From a virus: DNA of 64,000 nucleotides. The position numbers were made by a program, and so were the translations under genes. The stretch is from the IMG/VR virus record IMGVR_UViG_3300025141_011586, positions 1 through 64,000 of that record; one strand, written 5' to 3'. This document shows, piece after piece, positions 28,809 to 52,677 of this stretch. Below the pieces are notes generated by a model. The model was not told the origin of the DNA and ran no database searches. It worked only from the letters and a program-made list of their open reading frames with translations. Positions within the stretch are counted from its first letter, which is position 1. Each line of letters begins with the position of its first letter.

Positions 28809-31397
28809 ATGCAATATTATCAGGAACTCCTTGAAAGCTTTGATAAGTTAAAGAAGAGGAAGTTCAAGCTTACGATAATGGAGCAAGGGGGCAATGCAGA
28901 AGCTCAGGCTCAAGCTGCGCTGGAGGCGGCGAAGGGTGGCACCCATGATACCCCTGTTGAAATAGGAGCAACCAAGAATGGCAGTCCCATCAGAGGGTAT
29001 GTATCATCGGAGGGAGCTGTGTTGGTTGTGGCTCCCTGGCCAAGAGGCGGAGTAAGGCAGAAGAGGGTAATTGATGCGCCTCCGCCAAATGGGACTGGCC
29101 AAGTAATACCTGACGTGTGGAAAGAGTTTTTAACATTTTTTTCAGGTGATGAAGAGGCTGCTCCTGTTGAGGGTGAGGAGCAGGAGGTCTTTGGTGGAGG
29201 GGCTGCTCCAGGGGATACGATTAGGACTATGTTAGAGTCTGGGAGCCAGAAAATAAGGGATAGGCTTGGTGACTGGTTCCTAGGTATGAATAGATTATCT
29301 GGAAATCTGTTCGATAAGTTAGGGCCTCATAAAGATATTCTAGGGACTATCCCTGGAGGTAGTGCAGAGGGATTTGCAGGGTCCTTTACTGGGGCTGCGG
29401 GGAGATCAGTAGAAAGGCAGCTTGTCAATAGTAAGAGAGTTGTTCGAGATGAGGAGGGCAGGTTATCAAGGCTAGGTGCAATGGACCCAGTAGATCTAGC
29501 GGTTGGAGCTAGTAGGCTTCATAACTTATTATCCAAAGCTAGCTTAGATAAGATATCCGAGTCGGAGGCTCTGGAGTTGAGATCCAATATGGCTTTTAAC
29601 GAAGATGGGTCTGTCTTCCTGAGAACGGGAGGTCCTAATGAGGGCTTGCTGTTCAAAGACAATGGGAGAGCTATAACAGCCGCTATGAGGGTGGCAGAAG
29701 ACAGGGGTAATTTTAAATTTGACGTGCTCCCCTTGAAGGCGGCGACCGCAGGCATATCTTCCTGGAGAGGCAAGAATTTAGAAAGGGTTTCAACTATTCG
29801 AATGCTTGCCAAGAAATGTATTGGTGCTAGAGAGATGGGGATGGAGGTTGAGCACCCCCCTCAACCCGTAGCGTGTGCAGCTCTTCAGAGAGAGGTGGGA
29901 GAGTTTGTAGGGGAAGCTCACAAGTGGAGAGAAGCTCATCAATGGGCCAGAGGTTTTGAGTTAGGTGATTCTGCAATTAGAGCAGAGGACCAAGAGATTC
30001 TTAGATCCATACAGAGCACTGGCATCCAAGGAGAGGGCATAGCTGATATGGTCAGAGGTATCTTCCAGTTGTCCAAGGAGAGTGATGATTTGTTGGATGC
30101 GGATATGATAGTTCCAGTCGGAGCAATCACTGGAGGGGGGAGAAGGGCAGATGTTAATGCTATCTGGGTAGACGATGAAAAGTGTGGCAAGGCGAGAGAT
30201 GGTTTGTTGCGGAAGGGGTTCTCTGAGGAGGACATCGATAATAATCAAATGATACGGAGAATGAGTGCTAAAGAGGCCTTTGAGAATAGCACCGCTCTCA
30301 GGGATGATTTCCTAGCGGTCGAAGGACTGCGTGATGCAAACTCAAAGGTGTGCGTTCACGGAACAGGACTGAAGCACTACGAGCATGGGCTTGGGAATCC
30401 AAAAATTGGAGAACTTGAATTTAATAAGGTAGATGAAGTTCTTGGGGGGGCTATAGATGCGAGTGAACCTCATTGGGCAGAGATGCGAGAACACACCTAT
30501 AGTGAATTGGGTATGGACGAGGTAGCGCAACAGGCAATGTTAGGTGTGCATAAATCGATAAAGGATATTGATGATAGAGTTAGAGATTTGCCTGCGAATG
30601 CGACAGTTTCCGATGAGGAGGGAGGCATCTTAACTACTAATCATAACGCCTTACAGAATTTTGCGAAACGTACGTTAGATGATATTTTAGATAACACCAC
30701 TGTCGGTGAGTTGTTCCCTAAAGGTACCAACGAAGATGATAGTAGGTCTGAGTTATATAGCCAATTAAATACCCTGATGGGAAAGCAAGGCGGGGAAACT
30801 ACATTAGATACTCCCGAAGGTGAAGAGAGAGCACGAGAGCTTATCTCTAGATTCCTAAGACAGCGATATACTATGAAACGAGTAGCGCAGGAGAACGATG
30901 GAGAGAGAAGCGGGGGAGCTGCGACTGATTATCTGGCGGTTAACACTTTCCTAACAGGTGGATCAATTAATAATGGGGACAGTGGGGATTTTAGATCCAT
31001 CGCTGATGGTGAATTGAAATACTTTAGGCATAATGAGGTTCTGGAGGTGGTTAAGGCATTCAGGAACGGGAGGAGCTATAGGGGCATGACAGTCTCTATA
31101 CCTAACACAAACTCATTTACAACGAAGCTTGTTCTTGATGGGAATAAAGATACTTATGTTAGCTTTGGTGCTGAGGGTCAGTCTAGTGAAACGGTAGACG
31201 GAGGCTTCTCTAGGAATACTAGATTCGTTACTCATGCATCTGGAGGTCTATTGAATGAGATTGCAACGCCTAAATCAAGGTCAGCAAGTGTTCCTGAAGA
31301 GGTTAATGCTGATGCTCATGATCCAATAAACAATGTTATTGAAGAGTATCTAGAGAATCAAAGAGATATTCTATATAAGATTCTCGAAGCTAGGTAA
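28809..31397 (+). CDS. Large unknown protein, possibly head-internal
   Basis: 862 residues, no family recognised. The first 20 residues (MQYYQELLESFDKLKKRKF) resemble T4 capsid-targeting peptides, with LLE as a possible prohead-protease site. A Gly/Glu/Pro-rich low-complexity stretch follows (about 95-140), then a long, mainly helical soluble region with GAITGGGRRADVNAIWVDDE near 440 and VCVHGTGLKHYEHG near 510. It is transcribed alone, between a terminator and a convergent gene. T4 packages the ADP-ribosyltransferase Alt in a similar way, but no ADP-ribosylation motif is visible. A portal protein is unlikely from size and composition. Confidence 0.5.
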   Translation: MQYYQELLESFDKLKKRKFKLTIMEQGGNAEAQAQAALEAAKGGTHDTPVEIGATKNGSPIRGYVSSEGAVLVVAPWPRGGVRQKRVIDAPPPNGTGQVIPDVWKEFLTFFSGDEEAAPVEGEEQEVFGGGAAPGDTIRTMLESGSQKIRDRLGDWFLGMNRLSGNLFDKLGPHKDILGTIPGGSAEGFAGSFTGAAGRSVERQLVNSKRVVRDEEGRLSRLGAMDPVDLAVGASRLHNLLSKASLDKISESEALELRSNMAFNEDGSVFLRTGGPNEGLLFKDNGRAITAAMRVAEDRGNFKFDVLPLKAATAGISSWRGKNLERVSTIRMLAKKCIGAREMGMEVEHPPQPVACAALQREVGEFVGEAHKWREAHQWARGFELGDSAIRAEDQEILRSIQSTGIQGEGIADMVRGIFQLSKESDDLLDADMIVPVGAITGGGRRADVNAIWVDDEKCGKARDGLLRKGFSEEDIDNNQMIRRMSAKEAFENSTALRDDFLAVEGLRDANSKVCVHGTGLKHYEHGLGNPKIGELEFNKVDEVLGGAIDASEPHWAEMREHTYSELGMDEVAQQAMLGVHKSIKDIDDRVRDLPANATVSDEEGGILTTNHNALQNFAKRTLDDILDNTTVGELFPKGTNEDDSRSELYSQLNTLMGKQGGETTLDTPEGEERARELISRFLRQRYTMKRVAQENDGERSGGAATDYLAVNTFLTGGSINNGDSGDFRSIADGELKYFRHNEVLEVVKAFRNGRSYRGMTVSIPNTNSFTTKLVLDGNKDTYVSFGAEGQSSETVDGGFSRNTRFVTHASGGLLNEIATPKSRSASVPEEVNADAHDPINNVIEEYLENQRDILYKILEAR

Positions 31398-31923
31398 ACC
31401 AGAAATCATTATCTAAGTCTAGCAAGTCTTTAAATTTATATATTATATATTTATTAAAGATTAGATGTTTATATTCTTTATTTGAATATAGAGTTATATC
31501 ATCAACAAGTTGATTATTTAATATTGCTAATATCTCATTTCTATCTTGTTGCCATATAATAATAGATGGGACTCCTGCTCTCTGTGAATCTTTTTCACAT
31601 TGTTTTATAAAAGTGTAGAATGCAGACCGATCATTGAACAGGCTGCTCAGGTTCTCTTTGTTGTAACCCTTTTTACACTCGACGATAAACCTAAAGTTTT
31701 TGGGAGTTACTAGATCACCATGAATCTTTAAATATTCAGGGAGAGCATGTGTTGTAGCAAAGGCTCCACTCCCAGGAGTACGGCAGAATTCCTTGGTTTC
31801 AAACCTACTGTTGAGAAATTTACAAATTTTTCTTTCGAAGGATTGCCCTTTAGCCCTGCTGTTGACCCTCTTCTTAGGCTTTAAAGCCTCTAGATCACAA
31901 TTGTCTTTTATTTTTTTCGACAT
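31390..31923 (-). CDS. PD-(D/E)XK nuclease, Holliday-junction-resolvase-like
   Basis: 177 residues from the ATG at 31923; longer readings would run into the divergent gene. After a Lys-rich start, it shows RAKGQSFERKICKFLN, CRTPGSGAF, GDLVTPKNFRFIVECKKG: an E...GD...ExK arrangement typical of Hjc/RecU-type resolvases and related PD-(D/E)XK nucleases. It would act on branched DNA before packaging, the task of endonuclease VII in T4. Its 3' end overlaps the 3' end of the convergent upstream gene by 8 bp. Its start shares a promoter element with the divergent gene. Confidence 0.65.
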   Translation of the reverse strand: MSKKIKDNCDLEALKPKKRVNSRAKGQSFERKICKFLNSRFETKEFCRTPGSGAFATTHALPEYLKIHGDLVTPKNFRFIVECKKGYNKENLSSLFNDRSAFYTFIKQCEKDSQRAGVPSIIIWQQDRNEILAILNNQLVDDITLYSNKEYKHLIFNKYIIYKFKDLLDLDNDFWFT

Positions 31924-31927
31924 CAAT

Positions 31928-31936
31928 CTATTATAG
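31928..31936. promoter_or_regulatory. Shared near-symmetric divergent promoter CTATTATAG
   Basis: CTATTATAG reads CTATAATAG on the other strand, so each strand carries a CTATWATA box. The rightward ATG begins 4 nt after the box and the leftward ATG 5 nt after its box; only 16 bp separate the two start codons. Neither gene has room for a ribosome site. Confidence 0.6.
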
Positions 31937-31939
31937 CCT

Positions 31940-32227
31940 ATGCCAGAGACTGTTAAATTAAATATTGACGGATGGAAAATTCGTCTTGACGAAAGAAGTA
32001 GAGGTCGCATGAAATTTCAAATAAAGTTAAATAAGGAAGAGACAGAAGCTTTCAAAGCTTTTACTGACACTGTAAAGCCTGAGGAGGTTCCTCTTGACGA
32101 TTTTGTGAAGAGTATATTTTTAACAGGCATTGAATCCATGAACAAGAAGTTAGTGGAGATGGTCCAGAAATATGCCGAAGAGCATAAGGACGAGTTTAAT
32201 CCCTCTGGAATAGAAATTGTAGAGTAA
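31940..32227 (+). CDS. Small unknown protein
   Basis: 95 residues, charged. It begins with a strand-like region (VKLNIDGWKIRLDERSRGRM), followed by helices rich in Glu and Lys (NKEETEAFKAF, MNKKLVEMVQKYAEEHKDEF). It starts 4 nt after a CTATTATA box with no Shine-Dalgarno, and its stop overlaps the next start (TAATGG). Function unknown. Confidence 0.6.
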   Translation: MPETVKLNIDGWKIRLDERSRGRMKFQIKLNKEETEAFKAFTDTVKPEEVPLDDFVKSIFLTGIESMNKKLVEMVQKYAEEHKDEFNPSGIEIVE

Positions 32228-32535
32228 TGGACGAAAATATTATTTTCTTGGACAAGGAGAACCAGATCAATAAGGTCACCCGCGATCAAAAAAAGTCTGG
32301 GGAGAAAGTTAGGATCTTGTTCACATCTATGTGGGACGAGTGGTCATCTAATCTTGTGGAGAAGCTAAAGGGCTATAGAAAACAGGCAAAGTTATATGTG
32401 ATTAATAGCTTTACAATGCCCCATTCTTTTGTTATATTCAAAACAAAGAGAGTGCCCTATCTCATCACATTAAACGGAGATAGAGTGTATAAGGAAGGAT
32501 ATCTACCAAACATTTATAAAGAACTTGGGTGCTGA
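32227..32535 (+). CDS. Thioredoxin-fold-like protein without active-site cysteines
   Basis: 102 residues. The order of segments VRILFTSMWDEWSSNLVEKL, KLYVINSF, VPYLITLNGDRVYKEGYLP follows the thioredoxin fold: strand, the WCxxC position, helix, strand, the cis-Pro strand (VPY), strand, helix. The active site that should read WCGPC is WDEWS, and the single Cys is at the C-terminal end, so it cannot be a classical oxidoreductase; a binding or chaperone role is more likely. The gene overlaps the upstream stop. The call is structural and tentative. Confidence 0.45.
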   Translation: MDENIIFLDKENQINKVTRDQKKSGEKVRILFTSMWDEWSSNLVEKLKGYRKQAKLYVINSFTMPHSFVIFKTKRVPYLITLNGDRVYKEGYLPNIYKELGC

Positions 32536-32867
32536 CCAGTAACCTTCTCGATATAGTTTGATATCTTTTCATTGTATTTTTTGTTTTTTGTGTAGAGAAG
32601 TTTCAGGTTGTTTAGTATAATGGTCGTGAAGAAGTTGAAAGCCTTGCCCTTCTGAGGGTTGAAGTTCTTCAGCGTCTTAAGTATCAAAACAAAACACTCC
32701 TGTTTAGCATCATCCTTATCGACATTGAAGCCGAAAGAGTCTATAATATTGGAAATGAGTTTATCGAACATGCTCATCAGCTCCTCCTCATTGGTTTTCT
32801 TATCCTTGAGGTAAGCTTTGATCAGTTTTTCAAATCTTTTATTATCTACATAATGCTTCTTAACCAT
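32514..32867 (-). CDS. Late-transcription sigma factor, gp55-like
   Basis: 117 residues from the ATG at 32867. The core DDAKQECFVLILKTLKNFNP, GKAFNFFTTIILNNLK and a basic helix resembles sigma region 2 as found in T4 gp55, whose -10-binding domain has an FxPxK...FxYFT type segment. There is no region 4, so the product should recognise a -10 element only and depend on other factors, as gp55 does. T4 gp55 has 185 residues, so this copy is minimal. Its 3' end overlaps the convergent thioredoxin-like gene by 22 bp. It starts 4 nt after a CTATTATA box, so it may be expressed by its own product. Confidence 0.65.
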   Translation of the reverse strand: MVKKHYVDNKRFEKLIKAYLKDKKTNEEELMSMFDKLISNIIDSFGFNVDKDDAKQECFVLILKTLKNFNPQKGKAFNFFTTIILNNLKLLYTKNKKYNEKISNYIEKVTGQHPSSL

Positions 32868-32870
32868 ACC

Positions 32871-32879
32871 ATATAATAG
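32871..32879. promoter_or_regulatory. Shared divergent promoter ATATAATAG / CTATTATAT
   Basis: The rightward TATAATA box ends 3 nt before the polymerase fragment ATG; the leftward CTATTATA box ends 4 nt before the sigma-factor ATG. The two start codons are separated by only 14 bp, so both transcripts should be leaderless. This is the second such two-way element in 1 kb. Confidence 0.6.
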
Positions 32880-32881
32880 TA

Positions 32882-33889
32882 ATGTTTGAACTAGAAAGAC
32901 TTTACAGTGGATCCAGCACAACAACCTCCTGTGAAGGTTGCTCTATTCTTAAGAATTCTAGCAAGCCTTTTCACGCTCATATGGATCATGAAGACCTACC
33001 TGCTTCAGATGTTCTCTTCCTCTCCGACTCCTATAAGTGGAACGGATATGAAAAGACAGCGTTCAAAAAGGAAGAGATAGCTCTGTTCCAGGGTGGGCTG
33101 TCAGGATACTCAGGGTTTACATGGACCACATCTCCATCAGTAAAGTGCCCCGCAGTTAAGGAGGCAGATATGTCCCCCTCTAACATGAAGATTTGCAGGG
33201 AGTATCTAACAGATACAATACGCCACGTAAACCCTAGGCTAATCTTTGTTTGTGGCAACCTTGCAATGAAGATGCTAATCAAGAAGAGTGGCATCAGCTC
33301 CAAGCGAGGTAGGTGCTTCATGTATGAGGGCATACCAGTGGTCCCCTTGTTCCACCCACAAACTGTTATCAATGAACCTCGTCATAAGTTCTTATTTGAT
33401 ACGGACATAAAGAATTCAATCGATAAGTATATCCTTAACAAGGAGGTATCACACAGCTTTGATTACAAGGTTATCATGTCTTATGAGGACTTGAATGAGT
33501 TTTGTTCCGAGTTAATAGACACCTCTGAGACAATTGCCTGTGACATTGAGACCACAGGGCTGGACTTCCTGAGGGATAAGATGATGACTATAGCCTTCAG
33601 TCTTAAGGATAAGGGGTGGGTTCTGCCTATTGATCACAAGGAAGTGGAGTGGGAAGATAGTATGAAGGAGAGTATTCTTAGGGCTGTCTCTGAGATCCTA
33701 TCCAACAAGAGGAACAAGAAGGTATTTCACAATGCTAAGTTTGATCTTAAGTTCTTGAAGCAGTATGGTATAAAGGTGGAGAATGTATGGGATACAAAAT
33801 TGATGCATCATCTCATCGATGAGAACACTCCAAAGAGTTTGATGGAGCTAGTGAAGATCTACTTTCCTAAGGAGTTGGAGAGCTTTTAA
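32882..33889 (+). CDS. DNA polymerase family A, part 1: UDG-like domain and exonuclease motifs I-II
   Basis: 335 residues. Residues 1-170 resemble a family 4 uracil-DNA glycosylase: Cys17, Cys20, Cys89 and Cys105 have the spacing of its iron-sulfur cluster, and FHPQTV stands where family members have HPS. The usual GEAPG motif is replaced (FLSDSYKW), so glycosylase activity is doubtful. Residues 195-335 are the first part of a 3'-5' exonuclease: DIETTG (Asp221, Glu223, Exo I) and NAKFDLKFL (Exo II). The protein stops at PKELESF, just where DWSS would continue in Pol I relatives; that continuation is found 700 bp downstream after two inverted genes. Confidence 0.75.
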   Translation: MFELERLYSGSSTTTSCEGCSILKNSSKPFHAHMDHEDLPASDVLFLSDSYKWNGYEKTAFKKEEIALFQGGLSGYSGFTWTTSPSVKCPAVKEADMSPSNMKICREYLTDTIRHVNPRLIFVCGNLAMKMLIKKSGISSKRGRCFMYEGIPVVPLFHPQTVINEPRHKFLFDTDIKNSIDKYILNKEVSHSFDYKVIMSYEDLNEFCSELIDTSETIACDIETTGLDFLRDKMMTIAFSLKDKGWVLPIDHKEVEWEDSMKESILRAVSEILSNKRNKKVFHNAKFDLKFLKQYGIKVENVWDTKLMHHLIDENTPKSLMELVKIYFPKELESF

Positions 33890-34178
33890 TCCTCAAGACT
33901 CTCACACCCTCACCTGGAGCAGCCTCGCCCGTTTTTGGATCGACTTTGGAAAAACCTGACCAGGGTTGAGCCCCAACCCAAGGCTTTTCAGGATCCATGG
34001 CACGTTCTGTGTGGCGTAATCGCGCAGCCTTAGCTCTGGCCTTCTTCCCAGGCCTCCCTTTGGATGCGGTTGATGCCTTCCCAATATAGCCACTAGAAGA
34101 TGTACGATGTCCTGGGCCACCTCCAGCGGTGATCTCTTTTAGCAGCAGTTCAGTTATTCTCCCGTAAACTTTATTCAT
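33867..34178 (-). CDS. Small basic protein inserted within the polymerase gene
   Basis: 103 residues, basic, rich in Gly, Lys and Pro (SKGRPGKKARAKAARLRHTE). The N-terminus MNKVYGRITELLLKEIT matches the internal segment MNKNYERMAEVLYELTI of the neighbouring gene, so the two are related there. ITE and LKE fit the cleavage rule of the phage protease, which suggests capsid-targeting peptides. The start overlaps the stop of the upstream minus-strand gene (ATGA), and the 3' end overlaps the end of polymerase part 1 by 23 bp. Function unknown; a packaged DNA-binding protein is a guess. Confidence 0.5.
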   Translation of the reverse strand: MNKVYGRITELLLKEITAGGGPGHRTSSSGYIGKASTASKGRPGKKARAKAARLRHTERAMDPEKPWVGAQPWSGFSKVDPKTGEAAPGEGVRVLRIKSSPTP

Positions 34179-34561
34179 TTTTGTCTCGGATGCTCACCAG
34201 CGTCCCACTGTTGTTTAGTTTTCGCCGCTCTCGCTGCTTTCTCGGCCTTCTTCGCTGCTGCCGCCTTCTCTGCTGCCGTCTTCTCTGCTGCCGCCTTCTC
34301 TGCCGCCGCCGCTGCTGCCCTAGCTTTCCCCCCAGGAATTATTCGGGACAATATCCTTTTCCCACGCTCTATTGCTGGATCGAGATTAATGGTAAGCTCA
34401 TATAACACTTCTGCCATTCTTTCATAATTTTTATTCATTTTTACTTCCTTTATCCCGTGCTTTGCTTTAACCTGCATCACACAACGTTCATGCTTCGAGT
34501 CCTTTTTGGGACCTGTGGCTTTATGGCACACAGCCCAGGGATTTACTTTTCTTTTAGCCAT
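34175..34561 (-). CDS. Ala/Lys-rich protein with NPWAVC domain, inserted within the polymerase gene
   Basis: 128 residues. The first 40 residues (RKVNPWAVCHKATG, then HERCVMQVKAKHG) are of a small phage protein type with a conserved NPWAVC and a second Cys. The remainder begins at an internal Met (codon at 34438) with its own AAGGAAG ribosome site 5 nt upstream and reads MNKNYERMAEVLYELTI, then a long AEKAAAEKTAAEK helix. A second, shorter protein from that start is therefore likely. The full-length start has GGGAAAGAG upstream and a TATAATAG box at 34577-34584 on this strand. Confidence 0.55.
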   Translation of the reverse strand: MAKRKVNPWAVCHKATGPKKDSKHERCVMQVKAKHGIKEVKMNKNYERMAEVLYELTINLDPAIERGKRILSRIIPGGKARAAAAAAEKAAAEKTAAEKAAAAKKAEKAARAAKTKQQWDAGEHPRQK

Positions 34562-34576
34562 ACAACTTCTCTTTCC

Positions 34577-34584
34577 CTATTATA
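34577..34584. promoter_or_regulatory. CTATTATA promoter for polymerase part 2 and for the inverted genes
   Basis: On the plus strand, CTATTATA ends 5 nt before the ATG of polymerase part 2, which has no Shine-Dalgarno. On the minus strand, TATATAATAG precedes the Ala/Lys-rich gene by about 15 nt, long enough for a short leader with a ribosome site. Confidence 0.55.
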
Positions 34585-34589
34585 TACTC

Positions 34590-35069
34590 ATGCTCACTGT
34601 CAACAATCCTAAAAATTTCGACTGGAGTAGTATGTCCTTACATGATTGTGCTAAGGGCAACGCTCTGGATGCTTATTTCACTCTGAAGCTCTTCCATATA
34701 TGCGAGGAGAAGCTACAGGAGTATGGGATGCTAGGATTATACGAAAATCTTATGGCTCCTGCGACAGAGGCATTTAAGGATATGGAGTATGCAGGGTTAG
34801 ATGTGTCTCAAGAAAAGTTGAAGACGGTAGGGAAGGAGTTGTTTGAAAAGAATGTAGATCAAGCTGATTCTCTTTATGCTTTCAAGCAGGTAAATAAGGA
34901 GGACAACCTGTCCTCTAATAACCATTTGATTGAGGTGCTGTATACCAGAGAGGGGGGGTTTAATCTTTATCCCCCTGACAAGACTGCAAAGGGATCTCCC
35001 TCCGTGTCTGCCCCCACGTTGAAGCTATTATTAGAACAAATTGAGAACGAGTTGAGGACCAGGGAATGA
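34590..35069 (+). CDS. DNA polymerase family A, part 2: exonuclease motif III and thumb region
   Basis: 159 residues from the ATG at 34590; an in-frame ATG at 34506 lies inside the opposite-strand gene and adds a hydrophobic stretch unlike polymerase. The first residues, FDWSSMSLHDCAKGNALDAY, continue the exonuclease domain from part 1, with Exo III Asp27. The Tyr four residues before that Asp in most relatives is Gly23 here. The rest (LAPATEAFKDMEYAGLDVS in altered order of family A: LMAPATEAF, MEYAGLDVS, then HLIEVLYT and PDKTAKGSPSVSAPTL) is the linker and thumb before the polymerase core. Its stop overlaps the start of part 3 (ATGA). Confidence 0.75.
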   Translation: MLTVNNPKNFDWSSMSLHDCAKGNALDAYFTLKLFHICEEKLQEYGMLGLYENLMAPATEAFKDMEYAGLDVSQEKLKTVGKELFEKNVDQADSLYAFKQVNKEDNLSSNNHLIEVLYTREGGFNLYPPDKTAKGSPSVSAPTLKLLLEQIENELRTRE

Positions 35070-36151
35070 CCAAGTGGAGACACAGAGATGAGAGTAAGAA
35101 GATAAGTAAGTGGAGAGTTTCCGAACTTACTACACCCGCCCTCAAGAGTGCTAGAAATTTTGTGAAACAATTACTCGACCTTCGCAAATCTGAGAAGCTA
35201 TACAAGACGTACATACAGGGGGTCAGGAAGGCCGCTAAATTTAACGGGTGCGACAAGATCTATGTGGACTACAAGCTCGATGGCACCATCACAGGGAGGC
35301 TCTCATGCACAGCCTACACTGCTCAGGAGAGTAAGGGAGTTTCCTTTCACACTTTACCTAGAGAGACAGAGAATAATATCCGTAGCATCTTTGTAGCACC
35401 TGATGGATACAAGTTTATAACCGTGGATTACAGTGCGATGGAACTGCGTGTCCTAGCTCATGTTGCAAAAGAATATAACATGCAGAAAGCTTTCATCGAG
35501 GGGCGAGATCTCCATAGTTATACTGGGAGCCTACTCTTTAACAAGAAAGAGGGGGATGTCACAAAAGAGGAGAGACAGATAGCTAAGACAGTTTCTTTCC
35601 TTATCGTCTATGGGGGAGGAGCTTTTAACCTCGCTGAGACTATGGGCATTCGACTGAAGAGGGCTGAGAAGATCATCGAGGCATACAAGAATGTCTACCC
35701 AGGGATCTTTAAGTATATGGAGTTCATTGAGGCCTTTATCAAGAAGAACGGTTACGCTTATTCAATATTCGGTCGGAGAAGGAATCTCCCTGACGTTGCC
35801 TCTAGGAATCGTACCGTAGCCAACAAGGCTATAAGACAGGGGATTAATTTCACAATCCAAAGCACTGCTTCGGACGTTCTGGTCTGTTCGCTTCTAGGTA
35901 TTGTTGAGAAGTTTAAGCAGAAGGGTATGAAGGCTAGGATTGTTAGTACGGTTCACGATAGTATTGAAGCTATTGCCCCTGCCGATGAGGTAGACGAAGC
36001 TTGTCGTATCATCTATGATGAGATGGTGAACTATCCGTATATTAAAAAGACTTTTGGTATTGATTTTTCTGTCCCGCTAGACATAGAGATTCTAGTGGGA
36101 GAATCTTTCGGAGATGGGGAGGAGATAAAAGTATGCAACGTAGAGCCTTAG
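35066..36151 (+). CDS. DNA polymerase family A, part 3: polymerase catalytic domain
   Basis: 361 residues with all family A motifs: TGRLSC (about 77-81), motif A DYSAMELRVLAH (Asp121), motif B RQIAKTVSFLIVYGG (Arg170, Lys174, Phe178, Tyr182) and motif C STVHDSIEA (Asp298). Tyr182 is the dideoxy-discriminating position of Pol I. The segment FVKQLLDLRKSEKLYKTYI at 32-50 belongs to the thumb, so the break with part 2 falls inside the thumb. The ATGA overlap would couple translation of the two parts. The three proteins presumably reassemble into a replicative enzyme. Confidence 0.88.
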   Translation: MTKWRHRDESKKISKWRVSELTTPALKSARNFVKQLLDLRKSEKLYKTYIQGVRKAAKFNGCDKIYVDYKLDGTITGRLSCTAYTAQESKGVSFHTLPRETENNIRSIFVAPDGYKFITVDYSAMELRVLAHVAKEYNMQKAFIEGRDLHSYTGSLLFNKKEGDVTKEERQIAKTVSFLIVYGGGAFNLAETMGIRLKRAEKIIEAYKNVYPGIFKYMEFIEAFIKKNGYAYSIFGRRRNLPDVASRNRTVANKAIRQGINFTIQSTASDVLVCSLLGIVEKFKQKGMKARIVSTVHDSIEAIAPADEVDEACRIIYDEMVNYPYIKKTFGIDFSVPLDIEILVGESFGDGEEIKVCNVEP

Positions 36152-37086
36152 TAACAGGGGGATGTGGATTCATAGGAGCCCACTTAACCGAGAGACTGCT
36201 TAAAGAGGGGTGGAAAGTAGAAGTAGTAGATAATTTCCGCGAGGGCGATCCCGACAAGCCTCTTCCTGAAGGCGTTAAAGGCGCTATTCTCTGGCCTATG
36301 GATTTTACTGATTCAGTCATACTAGATTCTATAAGGGATAAAAAGTATGATATGGTTTTTCACTTAGCTGCAATCCCTAGAGTGGCCTACTCAGTAGAGA
36401 ATCCAGTGGAGACTACAGATAATAATATTCTAAAGACGGTGAAGTTATTTCACGCTTGTATAGGAAATGTTAAGAAAGTAATATTCTCATCATCATCATC
36501 TGTATATGGCGGTATTTTTGATGGGACAACAGTAATTAAACCTGTCCAGGAGTATATGGCTAGACATCCCAAATCTCCTTACGCTTGGCAGAAAGCAGCA
36601 ATAGAAGATGCTGCTGGCATATTCTCTGACCTGTATGAATTAGATATTATTTGCCTTAGATACTTCAACGTCTTCGGCCCAGGACAAGTTGCCGAGTCAG
36701 CATACTCTACAGTGGTATGTTCCTGGTGTGACGCAATTAAGAATGGTAAGCCTCTCAGGCTGGACGGCAATGGTTATCAGTCCAGAGACTTTTGCTACAT
36801 AGATAACGTGGTAGACGCTAATATTCTAGCGGCTGAAGGTACCGCTCGCGGAGGATGCTTTAATGTCGCTGGAGGTGAACGAATCCCCCTTATAAGGATA
36901 CTAGATTATTGTCAGCAGAAGTTCTCTGGACTAGAAGTAAAGGAAGCCCCAGACAGGAAGGGTGATGTTAGACATACTCTAGCTAGCCTGGAGAAATCTA
37001 AAATGTTTTTGAACTACGAACCGAAGGTACTTTTTTGGGAGGGTCTGGCTAAGACGTTTGATTGGTGGGGTTTAGAGCCTAAATGA
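36133..37086 (+). CDS. NAD-dependent sugar epimerase/dehydratase (SDR family)
   Basis: 317 residues. VTGGCGFIGAHL near the N-terminus is the NAD-binding TGxxGxxG motif; SSSSVYGG and YAWQK give the Ser/Tyr-xxx-Lys catalytic set; RYFNVFGPGQ and RDFCYIDNVVDA are typical of UDP-glucose 4-epimerase-type enzymes. It acts on nucleotide sugars. It stands among replication genes, 10 kb from the glycan cluster, and overlaps both neighbours (18 and 4 bp), with a GAGGAGATAAAAG ribosome site inside the polymerase gene. The substrate cannot be read from sequence. Confidence 0.85.
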   Translation: MQRRALVTGGCGFIGAHLTERLLKEGWKVEVVDNFREGDPDKPLPEGVKGAILWPMDFTDSVILDSIRDKKYDMVFHLAAIPRVAYSVENPVETTDNNILKTVKLFHACIGNVKKVIFSSSSSVYGGIFDGTTVIKPVQEYMARHPKSPYAWQKAAIEDAAGIFSDLYELDIICLRYFNVFGPGQVAESAYSTVVCSWCDAIKNGKPLRLDGNGYQSRDFCYIDNVVDANILAAEGTARGGCFNVAGGERIPLIRILDYCQQKFSGLEVKEAPDRKGDVRHTLASLEKSKMFLNYEPKVLFWEGLAKTFDWWGLEPK

Positions 37087-38090
37087 AGGCCTTAATTATA
37101 ACCGATAATCATCTAGGTAATGTTATGCCTGGATACCTGGACGCTCAGATAGAGTGCTTGAAAAATATCTACGAGGGTGGAGGCTACACTCATGTCATAA
37201 TGATGGGAGATGTTTTTATTCGCAGATCACCCAAGCCCACCACACTTCTAAAGTTAATGGATCTCCTGAACTATTATTCGATGTTCAGCGAAGTTCATAT
37301 CCTAAGAGGGAATCACGATTCGGAAACCAAGGCAGACGATGGTATCACTGCCCTTACATTATTCGCAAAATCTAACGTTAACATTTATGAGCACGTAGGT
37401 ATGGATACCTCTATGGGGTGGTTCTTTATACCTCATTATGAAAATGAAAATATTATTAAAAAAACTTTGGAATCTGTCCCTGAAAAGTCTCTGGTATTTG
37501 GTCACTTTGGTTATTCAGATTGCCCTAATATCCTTGGGAGGTATAGTAGCCTTATTACTCTTGATGAGTTTAGGAATCGCACTTTTCTGGGGCATCTTCA
37601 CTCAAATTTTAGAAGAAAAAATGTTACTGTCCTAGGGACTCAGTATACTACTAGCTATGTAGAGGCTGGTAAGACCAATTACTACGGTGTGTTAGAGGGA
37701 GAGCCTTACAACTGGCAGTATAGCCAGAAGAAGGTGCCAGCTTGTGGGGGACCGAGACATTTGGTCTATGCAATAGAGGATCTTTACAATAATTTGGACG
37801 AGATAAATGATCCAGATTACTTCACCTTGCTCAGGGTCTGGGTAGACTCTCTTTCGAAAGAGAATCAGGTTGGCTTACAGGAAGATCTCTATGAGCACTG
37901 CAAGGTTAAGAGTATAGACATTCAGTTTAATCCTGTATTTAGTGAGGAGGAGCTTAGTGATTACGTCCCCTCTTCAGATGTATTTTCTATAACAGATGAG
38001 ATGATAGAGGATTATGTTAACAAGAATACCACCACTCTATCGAAGGGAGACTTAATGCAAGGCTTGGAGTTGTTAAGGCATGAAGATTAA
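37083..38090 (+). CDS. Recombination nuclease subunit, gp47/SbcD/Mre11-like
   Basis: 335 residues. Metallophosphoesterase motifs appear in order: TDNHLG (with Asn in place of the first Ser/Thr-type residue of other families), GDVFIR, RGNHDSE, FGHFGYSD and FLGHLHS. With the next gene it should form the gp46/gp47 nuclease that resects DNA ends for recombination-dependent replication. The start overlaps the epimerase stop and its own stop overlaps the start of the ATPase gene by 11 bp, so the two subunits are coupled. Confidence 0.88.
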   Translation: MKALIITDNHLGNVMPGYLDAQIECLKNIYEGGGYTHVIMMGDVFIRRSPKPTTLLKLMDLLNYYSMFSEVHILRGNHDSETKADDGITALTLFAKSNVNIYEHVGMDTSMGWFFIPHYENENIIKKTLESVPEKSLVFGHFGYSDCPNILGRYSSLITLDEFRNRTFLGHLHSNFRRKNVTVLGTQYTTSYVEAGKTNYYGVLEGEPYNWQYSQKKVPACGGPRHLVYAIEDLYNNLDEINDPDYFTLLRVWVDSLSKENQVGLQEDLYEHCKVKSIDIQFNPVFSEEELSDYVPSSDVFSITDEMIEDYVNKNTTTLSKGDLMQGLELLRHED

Positions 38091-39678
38091 GAGAATCGAA
38101 ATAAGAAATTTTTATTCTATAAAGGATGTAAAGCTAAACTTCGAGAAGTATAAAGGAATAACCTTGGTTGAAGGGGTTAACAAGGATACGGGAGGTTCTA
38201 ACGGGGCAGGCAAGAGCGCATTATTTGAGGCTGTTGTCTGGGGGTTGTTTGGAAAGACCATTAGAAAATCTACTGAGGCTGCTTTGATTAACAACATTGC
38301 GAACAAAGGGTGCAGTGTTAAATTATTTTTAGATGACGAGGTGGTAATCATAAGGTCGAAGAAGCCTACATCTTTGGAGTTCCGCAAGGGAGAGAAAAGC
38401 TTAACCAGAGCTAGCGCATTGGAGACCCAGAAGATTGTTGAGTCTTACCTGAAGATAGACTACAAGACGTTCATGTCTTCCATGATCCTGGGGCAGCATA
38501 ATAACGTAGACTTCTTGAGCGCAACCCCAGAGGACAAGAGAACAATAATAAAGAACTTTCTAAACCTGGACGAGTTGTTTGGAGTGAGAGAGAAGATAAG
38601 GAGTTACAAGTCTTCTTATAATTCTGAGGCTAAGTCTAAAGTTTCTGTGATTAAAGAACATCTAGGCGAATTAAAAAGGCTGGAGACCAAGGTAAGCGAC
38701 ATAGAGAAGAGTAAACAGGGGTGTGATTTCCCTGAGAACATAAAATCATTCGACCCTAGCGAGGTTGTGAGGCTAGAAAAAGAATATGATGCGGCATGTA
38801 GAGAGATATTTGAGGCGAAGACTGCGATAACAAAGCTAGATGAAGTTAGCCATGAACTTATTTTAAAAATTAACAAGGGGGTGTACGAGGATACTGAGGA
38901 GTGTCCCTCCTGTAATCAAGATGTTAAGGTGTCTCAAACTGAGGAGGACATAGAGAAGTACGACTACCAAGTACATCAGTTTTCTAGGTTAAGAGAAGCT
39001 AAGTCTGACGAGATAGACACGCTGATCAAAAAAAGAGACAGTATTGATGTCCCAATCTCACATAAAAAGTTGTCCGAGTATGGAAAGTTTAATGACCTGT
39101 GCGTTCGTCAAGATACCTTTAGAGAAATCATTGAAACGTTAAAGGTTAAGATTCAGAAGAGGGAAAAAGAGAAAGTTAACAGCCAGACAGATTATGAGGT
39201 GATGAAGTTCTGGGAGAAAGCTTTTTCTGAACAGGGCTTAGTTAGGTTTGTTGTTAGAAATATTTTGGATCATCTAAACAACACTTGCAATAGATTTCTA
39301 TCTCTGGTATCTGGAGCGAAGCTGTCGATAGAATTTGATGAGAAATTAAATGAAAAAATTACTTCCTGCGGTATGGAGGTTCAGCACGTTTCCTTATCAG
39401 GCGGAGAACGTAGGAAGGTTAATGTTTCCATACTGTTAGCTTTACAGAGCTTGTTAAGTTTAACAAAAGAGAACAAGCCAAATCTACTTTTTTTTGATGA
39501 AGTAGCTGAGAATTTAGATGAGGATGGTGTGCAAGGGTTGTATATATTGATGCAAGAATTGAAAAAAACCAAGGATTTGTTTATAATTACCCACAACAAT
39601 CATTTCAAATCTGTATTGGATTTTGATAACAAGATTACTATGATAAAGTCTCGCGGAATATCTAAATTAAAGGAGTAG
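38080..39678 (+). CDS. Recombination ATPase subunit, gp46/SbcC/Rad50-like
   Basis: 532 residues. Walker A GGSNGAGKSALF at about 38-48, a coiled-coil middle with the zinc-hook CPSC at about 275-278, ABC signature LSGGERRKV near 438 and Walker B LLFFDEVAENLD near 469. Length matches T4 gp46 (560). It partners the nuclease encoded directly upstream. The next gene starts 2 nt after the stop, behind an AAGGAG site. Confidence 0.92.
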   Translation: MKIKRIEIRNFYSIKDVKLNFEKYKGITLVEGVNKDTGGSNGAGKSALFEAVVWGLFGKTIRKSTEAALINNIANKGCSVKLFLDDEVVIIRSKKPTSLEFRKGEKSLTRASALETQKIVESYLKIDYKTFMSSMILGQHNNVDFLSATPEDKRTIIKNFLNLDELFGVREKIRSYKSSYNSEAKSKVSVIKEHLGELKRLETKVSDIEKSKQGCDFPENIKSFDPSEVVRLEKEYDAACREIFEAKTAITKLDEVSHELILKINKGVYEDTEECPSCNQDVKVSQTEEDIEKYDYQVHQFSRLREAKSDEIDTLIKKRDSIDVPISHKKLSEYGKFNDLCVRQDTFREIIETLKVKIQKREKEKVNSQTDYEVMKFWEKAFSEQGLVRFVVRNILDHLNNTCNRFLSLVSGAKLSIEFDEKLNEKITSCGMEVQHVSLSGGERRKVNVSILLALQSLLSLTKENKPNLLFFDEVAENLDEDGVQGLYILMQELKKTKDLFIITHNNHFKSVLDFDNKITMIKSRGISKLKE

Positions 39679-39680
39679 AG

Positions 39681-41573
39681 ATGAGCATTGCGAAACTGAA
39701 TGAGCTAGGGCAGAGAATATTCGAACAGAGGTATGCCTACCCTGGAGAGAAGGGGTGGGGGGACAGGTCTAAAGCAGTAGCTAATCATGTAGCGTCTGCT
39801 GAGAGTGACCAAAACAAGGAGAAGATATCAAAGAAATTCTTTGAGGTAATTTCCTCTGGTGATTTTATTCCTGGGGGTAGGATTCTATTCGGCGCAGGAA
39901 GAAAACAATATAACCTTCTTAATTGCTACGTGATTATTCCTGAGGATAGCGTGGAGTCTATAGGAAAGACTATTCAGGATGTGTACAAGATTTCCTGTGC
40001 GGGTGGAGGTATCGGGTTTAATTTTAGTAAGATCCGCCCAAGAGGCGATGACATTCAGAACATTCCCAACTCAGCTCCAGGGTCAGTCTCCGTTATGAAG
40101 ATGATAAACGAGATAGGAGATCATGTAAGAGCAGGAAAGAATAGAAGGACTGCTTTGATGGGTATTCTTGATGTTACTCATCCTGATTTACTAGAGTTTC
40201 TTCATGTGAAACTAGACAAGAAGCAACTTTCTAATTTTAATATTTCGGTTGCCGTGACTGACAGATTTTTTGAGGCTTGCGAGAATAATGAGGAGTGGTA
40301 CTTCACATTTAACAGTAGGAAATACTACGTGTATCGCATTGACAGGGAGTCGAACGGCGAGTCTGAGACCATTAGTGTGGTAGGTCTGAACGAGGAGGAT
40401 GCTTTAGCGCGAGCCAGCAATCATTATAGTTTGGGTGCTGAGGATAAATTTACGCTAGTCGATAAGTATCCCCTGATGGCAAAAGAACTTTGGGAAGAGC
40501 TGTGGAGCAATGCTGTGGAGTCTGGAGACCCAGGCATCTTCAATCTGTCCTTAGCTAATAAGTATACTAACGTCTCTTATTTTGAGGAGATGCAGTCTAC
40601 TAACCCTTGTGGCGAAATCAGTTTACCAAGTTATGGAAACTGTTGCTTAGGGCATGTCAATCTTTCTAACATGGTAGTTGATGGGGAGTTTGATTGGAAG
40701 AAGTTTGCTAATGCAGTTCGCACAGGAGTTAGATTCCTTGATGATGTGTTGACCGTAAATTCTTTCCCTACACCAGAATGTCGGGAGGTAGGGCATCGCT
40801 CAAGGAGAGTTGGTCTTGGTATTTTGGGGTACCATTACATGCTTATCAAGCTTGGTATAAAATATGGTAGTGACAAGTGTTTAGAGTTTACTGACCGTCT
40901 CATGGTTACCTTTAGAGACGAGGCATATAAGACATCGGTCTACTTGTCGAGAGACAAAGGGCCATTTGCTGCGTTTGACGCTAAGAAGTATTTAAATGAA
41001 GAATTTGCTAGAACTTTACCTGCGAGAATTAGGATGCTTATTAAAGAGCACGGCATACGAAACGCTGTTATGCTCACCATTGCTCCTACTGGCACTATTA
41101 GCATGGTACATGGAGTATCGTCTGGTATCGAGCCTATCTTTGCTGCTATGTATCATCGTCGTTATAGGGAGAGGAATACTTGGACGGAGACTGTGGTAGT
41201 TGATCCTTTGTTTAAGCATTTCCACGAAGAAGGTCTCCCCTTAGATAATTTTGTGGGGGCCTATGACATTGATCCTAAGCAGCACCTAGCTGTCCAGGCT
41301 GTATTTCAGAGGTACATAGATTCCTGCATTAGTAAAACGATTAACTTGCCTTCTGATGCAGAATCAGACGAACTTAATAAAACTGCGCTGTCCTTTGCGC
41401 CCTACCTTAAGGGGCTAACTATTTACAAGGCAGGGTCTAAGGGACAGGAGCCACTAGAAATTATTCCTTTAACTTCAGAAAATATTAAGAAGTATCTAGG
41501 GGATTCTTCTTTAATAGAGGAGACAGTTTCTGATGGATCAGTCTGTTCTTTAACGGGAGGTGAATGTGGTTAA
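39681..41573 (+). CDS. nrdJ: Ribonucleotide reductase, class II (adenosylcobalamin-dependent)
   Basis: 630 residues. Class II features include PGGRILFGAGRKQYNLLNCYV (Cys82), CAGGGIGFNFS, the FNLS and NPCGE loop (Cys310), a second Cys in NCCLGHVNLS, and LTIAPTGTISMVHGVSSGIE. The C-terminal CSLTGGEC pair is the swinging disulfide. It makes deoxynucleotides without oxygen dependence but needs B12. A segment of about 50 residues after EWYFTF (RKYYVYRIDRES through NHYSLGAEDKFTL) looks inserted relative to the usual core. T4 instead carries class I and class III enzymes. The stop overlaps the GroES gene. Confidence 0.9.
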   Translation: MSIAKLNELGQRIFEQRYAYPGEKGWGDRSKAVANHVASAESDQNKEKISKKFFEVISSGDFIPGGRILFGAGRKQYNLLNCYVIIPEDSVESIGKTIQDVYKISCAGGGIGFNFSKIRPRGDDIQNIPNSAPGSVSVMKMINEIGDHVRAGKNRRTALMGILDVTHPDLLEFLHVKLDKKQLSNFNISVAVTDRFFEACENNEEWYFTFNSRKYYVYRIDRESNGESETISVVGLNEEDALARASNHYSLGAEDKFTLVDKYPLMAKELWEELWSNAVESGDPGIFNLSLANKYTNVSYFEEMQSTNPCGEISLPSYGNCCLGHVNLSNMVVDGEFDWKKFANAVRTGVRFLDDVLTVNSFPTPECREVGHRSRRVGLGILGYHYMLIKLGIKYGSDKCLEFTDRLMVTFRDEAYKTSVYLSRDKGPFAAFDAKKYLNEEFARTLPARIRMLIKEHGIRNAVMLTIAPTGTISMVHGVSSGIEPIFAAMYHRRYRERNTWTETVVVDPLFKHFHEEGLPLDNFVGAYDIDPKQHLAVQAVFQRYIDSCISKTINLPSDAESDELNKTALSFAPYLKGLTIYKAGSKGQEPLEIIPLTSENIKKYLGDSSLIEETVSDGSVCSLTGGECG

Positions 41574-41856
41574 GAAAAAAGAGAATAAGAAGTTGCAAGT
41601 TGAGGCTCTAGGTGATAGAGTATTGGTTCAAAGGAAAGATGCAGAAACAGTGACACAAGGTGGAATTATTTTAGCAGAAGGCTCTCAGGAGGAGCCTATT
41701 GAAGGAACTGTTTTTGGTATTGGCCCTGATTGTGTGAGCATAAAGGTAGGAGACATTGTGTTGATGCCTGCTTTTGCAGGGAACCAAGTTACCCTGCGAG
41801 GAAATCAATTTTCTGTTCTAGCGGAAGAGGAAATAATGCTTAGGATTCACGAATAA
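41566..41856 (+). CDS. groES: Co-chaperonin GroES-like protein
   Basis: About 96 residues. EALGDRVLVQRKDAETVTQG, GGIILAEG and GDIVLMPAFAGNQVTL follow GroES strand by strand, including the mobile-loop position (ETVTQGGIIL) that docks to GroEL. T4 uses gp31 for this; here the protein is closer to bacterial GroES. A GTG at 41566 is 5 nt from the GGGAGG site and is preferred over an in-frame GTG at 41560. It probably helps fold the capsid protein with host GroEL. Confidence 0.85.
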   Translation: MVKKKENKKLQVEALGDRVLVQRKDAETVTQGGIILAEGSQEEPIEGTVFGIGPDCVSIKVGDIVLMPAFAGNQVTLRGNQFSVLAEEEIMLRIHE

Positions 41857-41861
41857 TAACG

Positions 41862-42323
41862 ATGCCCTTTTATAGGTTTGAATGTGAGGAGTGTGAAGTT
41901 TCCTGGGAGAAGAAGGCTTCTATGAAAAAAGCTCCACAGAGAAGTCGTTGCGAGACATGCAAAAAGATGAGACCGAGGGTGTATGGTGCTCCCGCAGTGC
42001 ATTTTAAAGGCATGGACTTCGAAACGAATCGTTCACGAGCAGAAAGATTTGCAAAGGAAGGGATGGACAAGGATACTGCCAACGAGTTCCTGAATAACGA
42101 GGTACAATTTTCTAAAGATCGAAGACAAGATAGCGCGAAAGTATACAAGAGAGTGGTCCCAGACTACAAAAAAATGGCAAAGGAAGGCTTGGTTAAGAAG
42201 TGCTCTGATAAAAGAGTAAGAGAGAGGACAGATATTGCTAGAAAATTAACTAGAGATATGCATAATAATGCAGGACTAGATCCACACAAAGACATCAACC
42301 CCAACTTAAATTCTATTTACTAA
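41862..42323 (+). CDS. Zinc-ribbon protein, FmdB-like N-terminus
   Basis: 153 residues. The N-terminal 50 residues (FYRFECEECEVSWEKK ... CETCKKMRPRVY) form a CxxC...CxxC zinc ribbon like that of FmdB-type small proteins. The rest is basic and helical (RSRAERFAKEGMDKDTANEF, YKRVVPDYKKMAKEG), as in DNA- or RNA-binding phage proteins. Located between GroES and the helicase. A regulator or replication accessory is possible; function unknown. Confidence 0.6.
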   Translation: MPFYRFECEECEVSWEKKASMKKAPQRSRCETCKKMRPRVYGAPAVHFKGMDFETNRSRAERFAKEGMDKDTANEFLNNEVQFSKDRRQDSAKVYKRVVPDYKKMAKEGLVKKCSDKRVRERTDIARKLTRDMHNNAGLDPHKDINPNLNSIY

Positions 42324-45903: not shown

Positions 45904-47088
45904 ATGAGTGAAAAATTAAAAATCTTAGTTATCCCCGCTAACGAAGGGGGTTGTGCTTACTACAGAGCTATTATGCCCTTTATGAAACTACAGGAAGTCT
46001 GTCCTGATAGAGTTGAAGTAAGGCTGGACAAGAATCCCTTAGGCCTTGATGAAAAGACGGGCCAGTGGAAGGACAATTGGGCGTTTGAGAATATGAAATG
46101 GGCTCATATTATTGTCGTAAGTAACATCAGCAATTTCGGGGGGAATTACACAGCCAGAGTAATAGGTAAGGGGAAGGAGTTTAAGAAGTTTGTTCACTTT
46201 GATACTGATGATTTACTCACAGAGCTTTACGATGAACACCGCTTGAAGAAACTTTACGAAGAGAAGGGGTTGTCACAATTAACAAAGCATTTATACTACT
46301 CCTCAGATCTTGTAACGGTAACACAATCAAAGTTTGCTGAACGGGTTGAACCTTTTGTTGCCAAGTGTCTTGCTGTGGTCAAGAACTGCATTGATTATGA
46401 TTTACCCTGCTGGAATTTGCCAAAAAAGGTAGGGCATAGGCCAATAAGAATTGGCTGGGCGGGAGGCATTCATCACGATCCTGATGTAAAAGAGTTTGCT
46501 TCGGTCCCACACTTGGTCAACCAGAAAGTGGGACAGGAGAATGTATGGTGGGATTTCTATGGTCATCCCCCTAAAGGAGATAAAGACGATCCTGATGATT
46601 GGCAGGTAGATGTTTGGAAAGGGTATAAGAAAACTCTTTTAGGTGGTTTCAAGGGACATAAAAATTGGACAATCCATCACGCCATGGCTCCAGACTCTTA
46701 CGGTGGGATGTATGCTAACATGGACATAGCAATAGCTCCTCTCCAGATGAATAATTTTAACGATTCGAAGTCGGATATAAAAGTGGCAGAATGTGGTAGG
46801 TATAAGGTGCCTCTAGTGGCCTCTAATGTTGGCTGCTATAATGAGACGATTGAGAACTGGAAAACAGGATACCTTATCCCGCCTGGAGCGTCGAAAATAA
46901 AGTGGGTCAAGGTCTTGACAAGATTGATCAAAGAGCATGGGTTGAGAAAGCAGATGGGTGAAAACCTCCATGCTATCACGGAGCAGGATTTTAGTGCTAG
47001 AAATGTTGTAGCAAGCAGAATAAATTTGTATGAGGAATGTTTTAAGTTAACGTTTGATCCTAGGGAGAGAGAAGATGTCGCAGATTAA
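45904..47088 (+). CDS. Glycosyltransferase, GT4-like
   Basis: 394 residues with a two-domain GT-B look: ANEGGCAYYRAIMPFMKLQE at the start, VHFDTDDLLTELYDEH, then RIGWAGGIHHDPDVKEFASV and the donor-site region DSYGGMYANMDIAIAPLQMN ... SDIKVAECGRYKVPLVASNVG. These are signs of retaining GT4-type transferases that use nucleotide sugars. First gene of the cluster; its end overlaps the next gene's start. Confidence 0.75.
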   Translation: MSEKLKILVIPANEGGCAYYRAIMPFMKLQEVCPDRVEVRLDKNPLGLDEKTGQWKDNWAFENMKWAHIIVVSNISNFGGNYTARVIGKGKEFKKFVHFDTDDLLTELYDEHRLKKLYEEKGLSQLTKHLYYSSDLVTVTQSKFAERVEPFVAKCLAVVKNCIDYDLPCWNLPKKVGHRPIRIGWAGGIHHDPDVKEFASVPHLVNQKVGQENVWWDFYGHPPKGDKDDPDDWQVDVWKGYKKTLLGGFKGHKNWTIHHAMAPDSYGGMYANMDIAIAPLQMNNFNDSKSDIKVAECGRYKVPLVASNVGCYNETIENWKTGYLIPPGASKIKWVKVLTRLIKEHGLRKQMGENLHAITEQDFSARNVVASRINLYEECFKLTFDPREREDVAD

Positions 47089-47863
47089 GATAGTTAGTGG
47101 GTTTACCCACGGAGGAGGATCAACTCATGCGTATATGAATCTTTGCGACTTGTTCAACGAGAATGGATACGACTGTACGTTCTACGGGCGACACCCTTGG
47201 CATCTAGATAAATGTTCTAAAGGGGCACTGATTCAGAATCTCGAACCTGAGATGGATGATACATTTTTGGTTCATTACTTCAGGATTGATGATATCATCC
47301 CGATGTGTAAGAAGATGGTTCTCAGTGTTCATGAGAAGAACATGTTTCCGATAAAGGATGTGGAGTATTCCCACTATAATTTTATTCATTACATAAATGA
47401 TGACCAACGGAAGTGGCAAGCAATCGATCACCCATACCATATTATACCTAACGTCTATGACGATCTGAAAGAGGAAGAGAAGACAGGTAGTGCTGCTGGT
47501 ATTATCGGAACCATAGATCGCAACAAGAACACACATGTCTCCATCAGAAGAGCTTTGGATAAGGGATACGATTCTGTCCTATTATATGGAGAGGTTACTG
47601 ACAAAGATTACTACGAGGATAAGGTGAAGCCCTTACTAAATGATAAGGTAGTCCAGATGGGGCACTGTGGCGATAAGCAAGAGATGTACAACAGTGTGGA
47701 GTCCGTGTTTCTCTCCTCCGATAGCGAGGTTGCTCCGCTAGTAAAGGGGGAGTGTAACTTGACTGGGACAAATTTTTACGGCAACAAGAATACCGAGGGG
47801 TCCGCCTTCCCAGTAGACAGAAAAGAGATCTTGGACATGTGGGTTAAAGCTTTGGAATTATGA
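47075..47863 (+). CDS. Putative glycosyltransferase
   Basis: About 262 residues from the ATG at 47075, which follows GGAGAGAG; an in-frame TTG 21 bp upstream is less likely. The N-terminus SGFTHGGGSTHAYMNLCDLF is the glycine-rich acceptor loop of GT-B transferases, and GTIDRNKNTHVSIRRALDKG with VLLYGEVTD follows the linker and donor domain. The C-terminus CNLTGTNFYGNK is unusual. Overlaps the previous gene by 14 bp and the next by 4 bp. Confidence 0.6.
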   Translation: MSQIKIVSGFTHGGGSTHAYMNLCDLFNENGYDCTFYGRHPWHLDKCSKGALIQNLEPEMDDTFLVHYFRIDDIIPMCKKMVLSVHEKNMFPIKDVEYSHYNFIHYINDDQRKWQAIDHPYHIIPNVYDDLKEEEKTGSAAGIIGTIDRNKNTHVSIRRALDKGYDSVLLYGEVTDKDYYEDKVKPLLNDKVVQMGHCGDKQEMYNSVESVFLSSDSEVAPLVKGECNLTGTNFYGNKNTEGSAFPVDRKEILDMWVKALEL

Positions 47864-49565: not shown

Positions 49566-49566
49566 G

Positions 49567-51994: not shown

Positions 51995-51998
51995 ATAA

Positions 51999-52676: not shown

Positions 52677-52677
52677 C

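Follow-up and report, generated by a model that had tools for sequence, protein, structure and literature searches.

In the 64,000-nucleotide window analyzed here (the whole stretch, positions 1 to 64,000 of IMG/VR virus record IMGVR_UViG_3300025141_011586, to which all coordinates refer), a family A DNA polymerase is encoded by three open reading frames (ORFs), called parts 1, 2 and 3 below. The phage also carries T4-like homologues of gp21, gp23, tail sheath, gp32, gp41, UvsX and the late sigma factor, and its lineage is one of marine T4-related viruses. An initial annotation of this DNA had described three ORFs, a 700-bp gap with two minus-strand ORFs and an ATGA overlap, and all of these are present in the sequence (Table 1).

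Table 1. Features of the three-part polymerase locus and its surroundings, in window coordinates.
Feature	Position	Strand	Description
Part 1 of polymerase	32882..33889	+	335 aa; family-4 uracil-DNA glycosylase (UDG)-like domain and first portion of the 3'-5' exonuclease
Part 2 of polymerase	34590..35069	+	159 aa; Exo III and much of the thumb
Part 3 of polymerase	35066..36151	+	361 aa; conserved N-terminal extension, then palm and fingers, which carry motifs A, B and C
Part 2/part 3 break	35066..35069	+	ATGA overlap; in the thumb, Klenow 617-625
Insert at the ancestral junction of parts 1 and 2	33890..34589		700 bp, filled by two inverted ORFs; empty in 42 other haplotypes
Inserted gene 2	33867..34178	-	Small and basic, tagged YGRITELLLKE at the N terminus; candidate internal head protein; no Pfam or PHROG match
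Inserted gene 1	34175..34561	-	Basic and Lys/Ala-rich, with the tag YERMAEVLYE inside the protein; candidate internal head protein; weak PHROG match to a family of unknown function
Promoter-like box	34577..34586		Quasi-palindromic CTATTATATA, between the inserted genes and part 2
Divergent intergenic region	32868..32881		14 bp holding a palindromic TATNATAG box; candidate promoter acting in both directions, on part 1 and on the sigma gene
gp55-like late sigma factor	32514..32867	-	Divergent neighbor of part 1; phrog_234 late sigma, E=3.2e-5

The three parts lie consecutively on the phrog_17 DNA polymerase profile (482-785, 809-927 and 931-1236 of 1445) and also on Klenow, at ~329-455, 484-617 and 625-907 (chain index + 323), so the first cut separates Exo II from Exo III and the second falls in the thumb. 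The three parts align end to end with MW202455.1, an 804-aa relative that is not split; no residues are missing at either break, as had been proposed, and ~38 residues are additional at the second. The junction residues had been read as part 2 resuming with FDWSS. Nothing is indeed lost there, but relatives, which nearly all begin MLTI/V.NP, place the start of part 2 firmly at the ATG at 34590 (MLTVNNPKNFDWSS...), and FDWSS therefore represents residues 10-14 and not its beginning.

We scanned viral contigs with alignments of parts 2 and 3 and found 155 loci (86 haplotypes) with all three parts. The same two break sites occur in all 155, and none carries a fusion of any two parts. This result is not built into the search, since the part 3 search is independent of the first cut and the part 2 search of the second. 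Among these loci the identity of part 2 to the window version falls to ~42%, and the comparison indicates that the three-way split is ancestral to the lineage and not specific to the window. The window record is a metagenomic contig, so the split could in principle be an assembly error or a decaying pseudogene; however, a second contig record (L001) matches 30801-42148 (11.3 kb) exactly apart from 7 Ns, which makes a one-off assembly error unlikely, and identical breaks in dozens of independent contigs settle that question. Together with the strong purifying selection described below, these records make either explanation almost certainly wrong.

Every part appears to be maintained. Part 3, which carries the polymerase core, matches PF00476 (E=1.9e-80), and its residues D121, E126, R170, K174, F178, Y182, H297 and D298, from polymerase motifs A, B and C, are invariant in 75 sequences. 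The four DEDD acids of the exonuclease (D221, E223 and D288 in part 1, D27 in part 2) are invariant in 69 diverse sequences. Ratios of nonsynonymous to synonymous substitution (dN/dS) are 0.02-0.13 across parts 1, 2 and 3, in pairs with and without inserts, and indicate strong purifying selection on each of them. In five contigs of 73-131 kb, whose completeness is not established, we find one family A polymerase each, and polymerases of family B or C (PolB, PolC) were not found. A search for a sliding clamp gave no match, and neither did its control.

Part 1 matches PF01612 (E=1.6e-20) and PF03167 (E=1.4e-8). Its UDG-like domain spans approximately residues 42-185 and is followed by Exo I (D221/E223) and Exo II (D288). 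The AlphaFold model of part 1 (local confidence score, pLDDT, 83) has family-4 UDG and the Klenow exonuclease as its top PDB folds, with 1ui0 as the fold match for the UDG-like domain (32882-33436). The iron-sulfur cluster cysteines C17, C20, C89 and C105 and the HP motif (H158, P159) are invariant in 69 part 1 sequences, and the cysteine spacing fits family 4. The catalytic GE(A/G)PG motif of that family is lost, with LSDS.KY in its place, and the domain may bind without cutting or have a structural role. Part 2 has no match in a Pfam scan, but a profile built from 69 part 2 sequences matches Klenow 484-617 (E=5.7e-8) and aligns D27 with Klenow D501. The Exo III tyrosine (Klenow Y497) is replaced by G23 (34656-34658), which is invariant in the same 69 sequences, so the chemistry of proofreading may differ from that of Klenow. 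Modeled alone, all of part 2 and the last 35 residues of part 1 give low confidence (predicted template modeling score, pTM, 0.33 for part 2); these models are weak evidence, but such an outcome would be expected if the pieces depend on partners.

The replaced tyrosine and the missing GEAPG motif, by which one catalytic motif of part 1 has already gone, would fit a phage in which only parts 2 and 3, or part 3 by itself, act as the polymerase and the part 1 exonuclease is a degenerate leftover or has another job. Against this stand the four invariant acids, one of them on a different polypeptide, whose retention in a dead domain would be surprising, and the dN/dS of 0.04-0.13 that we calculate for part 1 alone; we consider this explanation improbable. 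Three ORFs that tile one polymerase, cuts shared throughout the lineage, invariant catalytic residues and purifying selection on each part, all read from sequence, instead point to a single replicative DNA polymerase of family A whose three proteins are translated separately and come together by non-covalent assembly, a reading to which we assign a probability of roughly 85%. In such an enzyme, parts 1 and 2 would fold together into the exonuclease, with part 1 giving D221, E223 and D288 and part 2 giving D27, and the remainder of part 2 would dock on part 3 and complete the thumb. The three chains would then associate into a single Klenow-like enzyme with an exonuclease site common to parts 1 and 2 and a thumb common to parts 2 and 3. 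Several points weigh against this reading: we infer the assembly and activity of the three parts, an invariant glycine stands where Klenow Exo III has its tyrosine, the fold of part 2 alone says little given the low global confidence of its model, and the promoters and leaderless expression discussed below are read from motifs.

The two inverted genes of the window had been thought to split the exonuclease. One locus (L093) was excluded from the haplotype counts for an apparently frameshifted part 1 end; among the 85 usable haplotypes, parts 1 and 2 abut directly in 42 (39 by TAATG, 2 by TGATG and 1 by TAGATG), and the other 43 have 151-2403 bp of unrelated genes placed exactly between the part 1 stop and the part 2 start. 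Since the break is shared by the whole lineage and occurs in these 42 haplotypes with no insert, the inverted genes did not split the polymerase but entered an old break, and unrelated inserts appear to have arrived there later and repeatedly. They fall into some twenty unrelated clusters, including co-oriented small ORFs, a glycosyltransferase, a 2-oxoglutarate (2OG) oxygenase and, on the minus strand, sets that encode either small basic proteins or a lipoprotein-like protein. On the part 3 tree, insert presence and absence needs 15 changes, gains or losses; if only well-supported branches are counted, the uninserted label still requires 5 or more. A filled and empty pair with near-identical flanks is given by L015 (91-aa insert) and L019 (no insert). 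The first junction would tolerate such insertions because nothing must be continuous there.

One possible origin of the breaks is an intron or homing endonuclease that once cut the gene and then disappeared, so that fixed fragments and an insertion site open to reuse remained; known interrupted T4-type polymerase genes are tied to introns and free-standing homing endonucleases (PMC2993671). As the initial annotation had stated for the window, Pfam scans of inserts revealed no homing endonuclease in those examined; the insert genes that could be recognized were limited to glycosyltransferases and a 2OG oxygenase. Intermediates carrying a single break or an endonuclease were not found either, and L085, the most divergent part 2, retrieved only itself when used as the query; we regard this origin as possible but on balance unlikely. 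Rejoining of the parts after transcription or translation, whether by programmed frameshifting, by a split intein or through a group I intron, has precedents in the introns and inteins of phage polymerase genes (PMC10580990 on introns; the split-intein PolB of MIJ3, PMC6892783), and TAATG overlaps could in principle frameshift. Against it, Rfam scans of the window stretch and of seven loci gave no intron, and there is no added intein-like sequence at the break, where part 1 ends ELE(N/S)L/F and part 2 opens MLTI in almost every case. The codons before TAATG are variable, with no fixed slippery site, and the inserts hold whole genes on the opposite strand. Rejoining is thus very improbable, and the earlier reading of separate polypeptides instead of splicing is upheld.

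Minus-strand insertions coincide with a change of expression signals. A ribosome-site-like motif lies in the last part 1 codons of 35 of the 42 direct junctions, versus none of the 31 minus-strand-insert haplotypes; conversely, a TATA-like box ending ~3 nt before the part 2 ATG is found in 29 of those 31 and in none of the 42 uninserted haplotypes. The promoter-like box of its own that had been assigned to part 2 is present in the window as CTATTATA at 34577. In the ancestral form, ribosomes would translate the three parts one after another, by way of TAATG and then overlapping starts, and the final codons of part 1 would contain the ribosome site for part 2. Where the insert faces backward, part 2 would be expressed from its own box, probably on a leaderless or near-leaderless mRNA. 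Additionally, a palindromic box of this type, TATNATAG, is present in 72 of 77 haplotypes in the short gap, usually 12-16 bp, between part 1 and the gp55-like sigma gene that diverges from it; this sigma gene adjoins part 1 in most loci. Across the window, TATNATA occurs near 7 of ~58 gene starts versus 13 of ~2014 other ATGs. In bacteria, bidirectional promoters rely on symmetric -10 elements, and their two start sites are typically separated by 18 bp (PMC10268837); judged from these motifs, a shared bidirectional, near-leaderless promoter is plausible here. We also observed that the divergent gaps at 31924-31939, 32868-32881 and 34562-34589, with 14-28 bp between start codons, have a common quasi-palindromic CTATNATA(G)-like box, and all three are candidate bidirectional promoters for leaderless or near-leaderless mRNAs. 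The resolvase-like gene probably begins at 31923, not 32010.

The minus-strand inserts of L020-L156 and of the window (33867-34561) encode small basic proteins with a tag like the capsid targeting sequence (CTS) of T4. All 27 non-lipoprotein-type proteins of this kind are basic, and a Tyr-hydrophobic-Leu-Leu-x-Glu-like tag is found in 23 of the 27 (shuffled mean 2.6, maximum 8); this count is a lead that is suggestive only, because the pattern was tuned on these very proteins, a first and too narrow version having matched 6 of 27 before it was broadened after viewing the sequences. In T4, a 10-residue tag targets internal proteins into the head and is then removed by the prohead protease (PMC9026906), and a gp21-like protease is encoded by the window phage. 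The insert products resemble these T4 proteins in being small and basic with a short Tyr/hydrophobic/Glu tag, and differ in having no detectable sequence homology to them. They may be internal head proteins that are injected, with the polymerase locus containing a hotspot for their exchange. Elsewhere in the window (28809-31397), an 862-aa protein without a PHROG match begins MQYYQELLESF after a CTATAATA box and is a possible large internal head protein.

Since part of the thumb and the fourth acid of the exonuclease lie in part 2, which in genomes with inserts also has a promoter-like box of its own beside virion-type genes, proofreading might be detachable and separately regulated, and the phage might shift the ratio of proofreading to non-proofreading polymerase, or the grip of the polymerase, through control of part 2. 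We regard this as a doubtful, speculative idea. More generally, the breaks offer natural split sites for a Klenow-type enzyme and a way to probe how much fragmentation a high-fidelity enzyme withstands. The locus is also a clear example of a gene break turned into a place where other genes can land safely; it exists both empty and filled, and the expression signal changes.

Directly after part 3, the window has a sugar epimerase-like gene (36133-37086), where relatives such as L004 and L005 have a thymidylate synthase-like gene. A long run of glycosyltransferase-like and sugar-metabolism-like genes, as judged from their translations, occupies 45904-59913. One relative (L177, QCKN01000003.1), a 130,604-bp contig, is filed in the Prochlorococcus single-cell genome AG-409-P03; this is only a hint of a Prochlorococcus host because a co-sorted virus would look identical.

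In the open-access literature, we found no report of a replicative polymerase fixed as three polypeptides lineage-wide with its proofreading site divided between two chains, although an earlier report elsewhere is possible; a survey of virioplankton PolA does not mention splits (PMC6302109). Phage 0305phi8-36 was considered as a precedent and rejected, as the literature on it describes no split polymerase. Rhodothermus phage RM378 (NC_004735), considered as a split family A precedent, was also rejected: it is a T4-related phage with exonuclease and polymerase in separate genes, but these are unmatched by the part profiles, read as family B by their motifs, and lie ~57 kb apart (L174 21996-22937, L175 29587-31155). 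Interrupted T4-type polymerase genes of large phages, such as gene 43 of Aeromonas phage 25 with its intron (PMC2993671) and the PolB of MIJ3 with its split intein (PMC6892783), are likewise family B, and their interruptions are linked to introns, inteins or homing endonucleases; the three-part locus shows no sign of any of these. Myoviridae sp. ctfzr933 (MW202455.1) has the same UDG-exonuclease-polymerase domain order at 31-35% identity, but as a single protein with intact GEAPG and Exo III tyrosine. The initial annotation had pointed to split polymerases of some T4-related phages; known precedents extend beyond T4-like family B enzymes, and the closest is the family A polymerase of OM43 phages MEP401 and MEP402, for which the authors thought an intron possible (PMC10580990). 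There, too, separate ORFs flank a small unknown ORF in most members of the group; that polymerase, however, is in two pieces, cut inside the polymerase domain, and its exonuclease is undivided.

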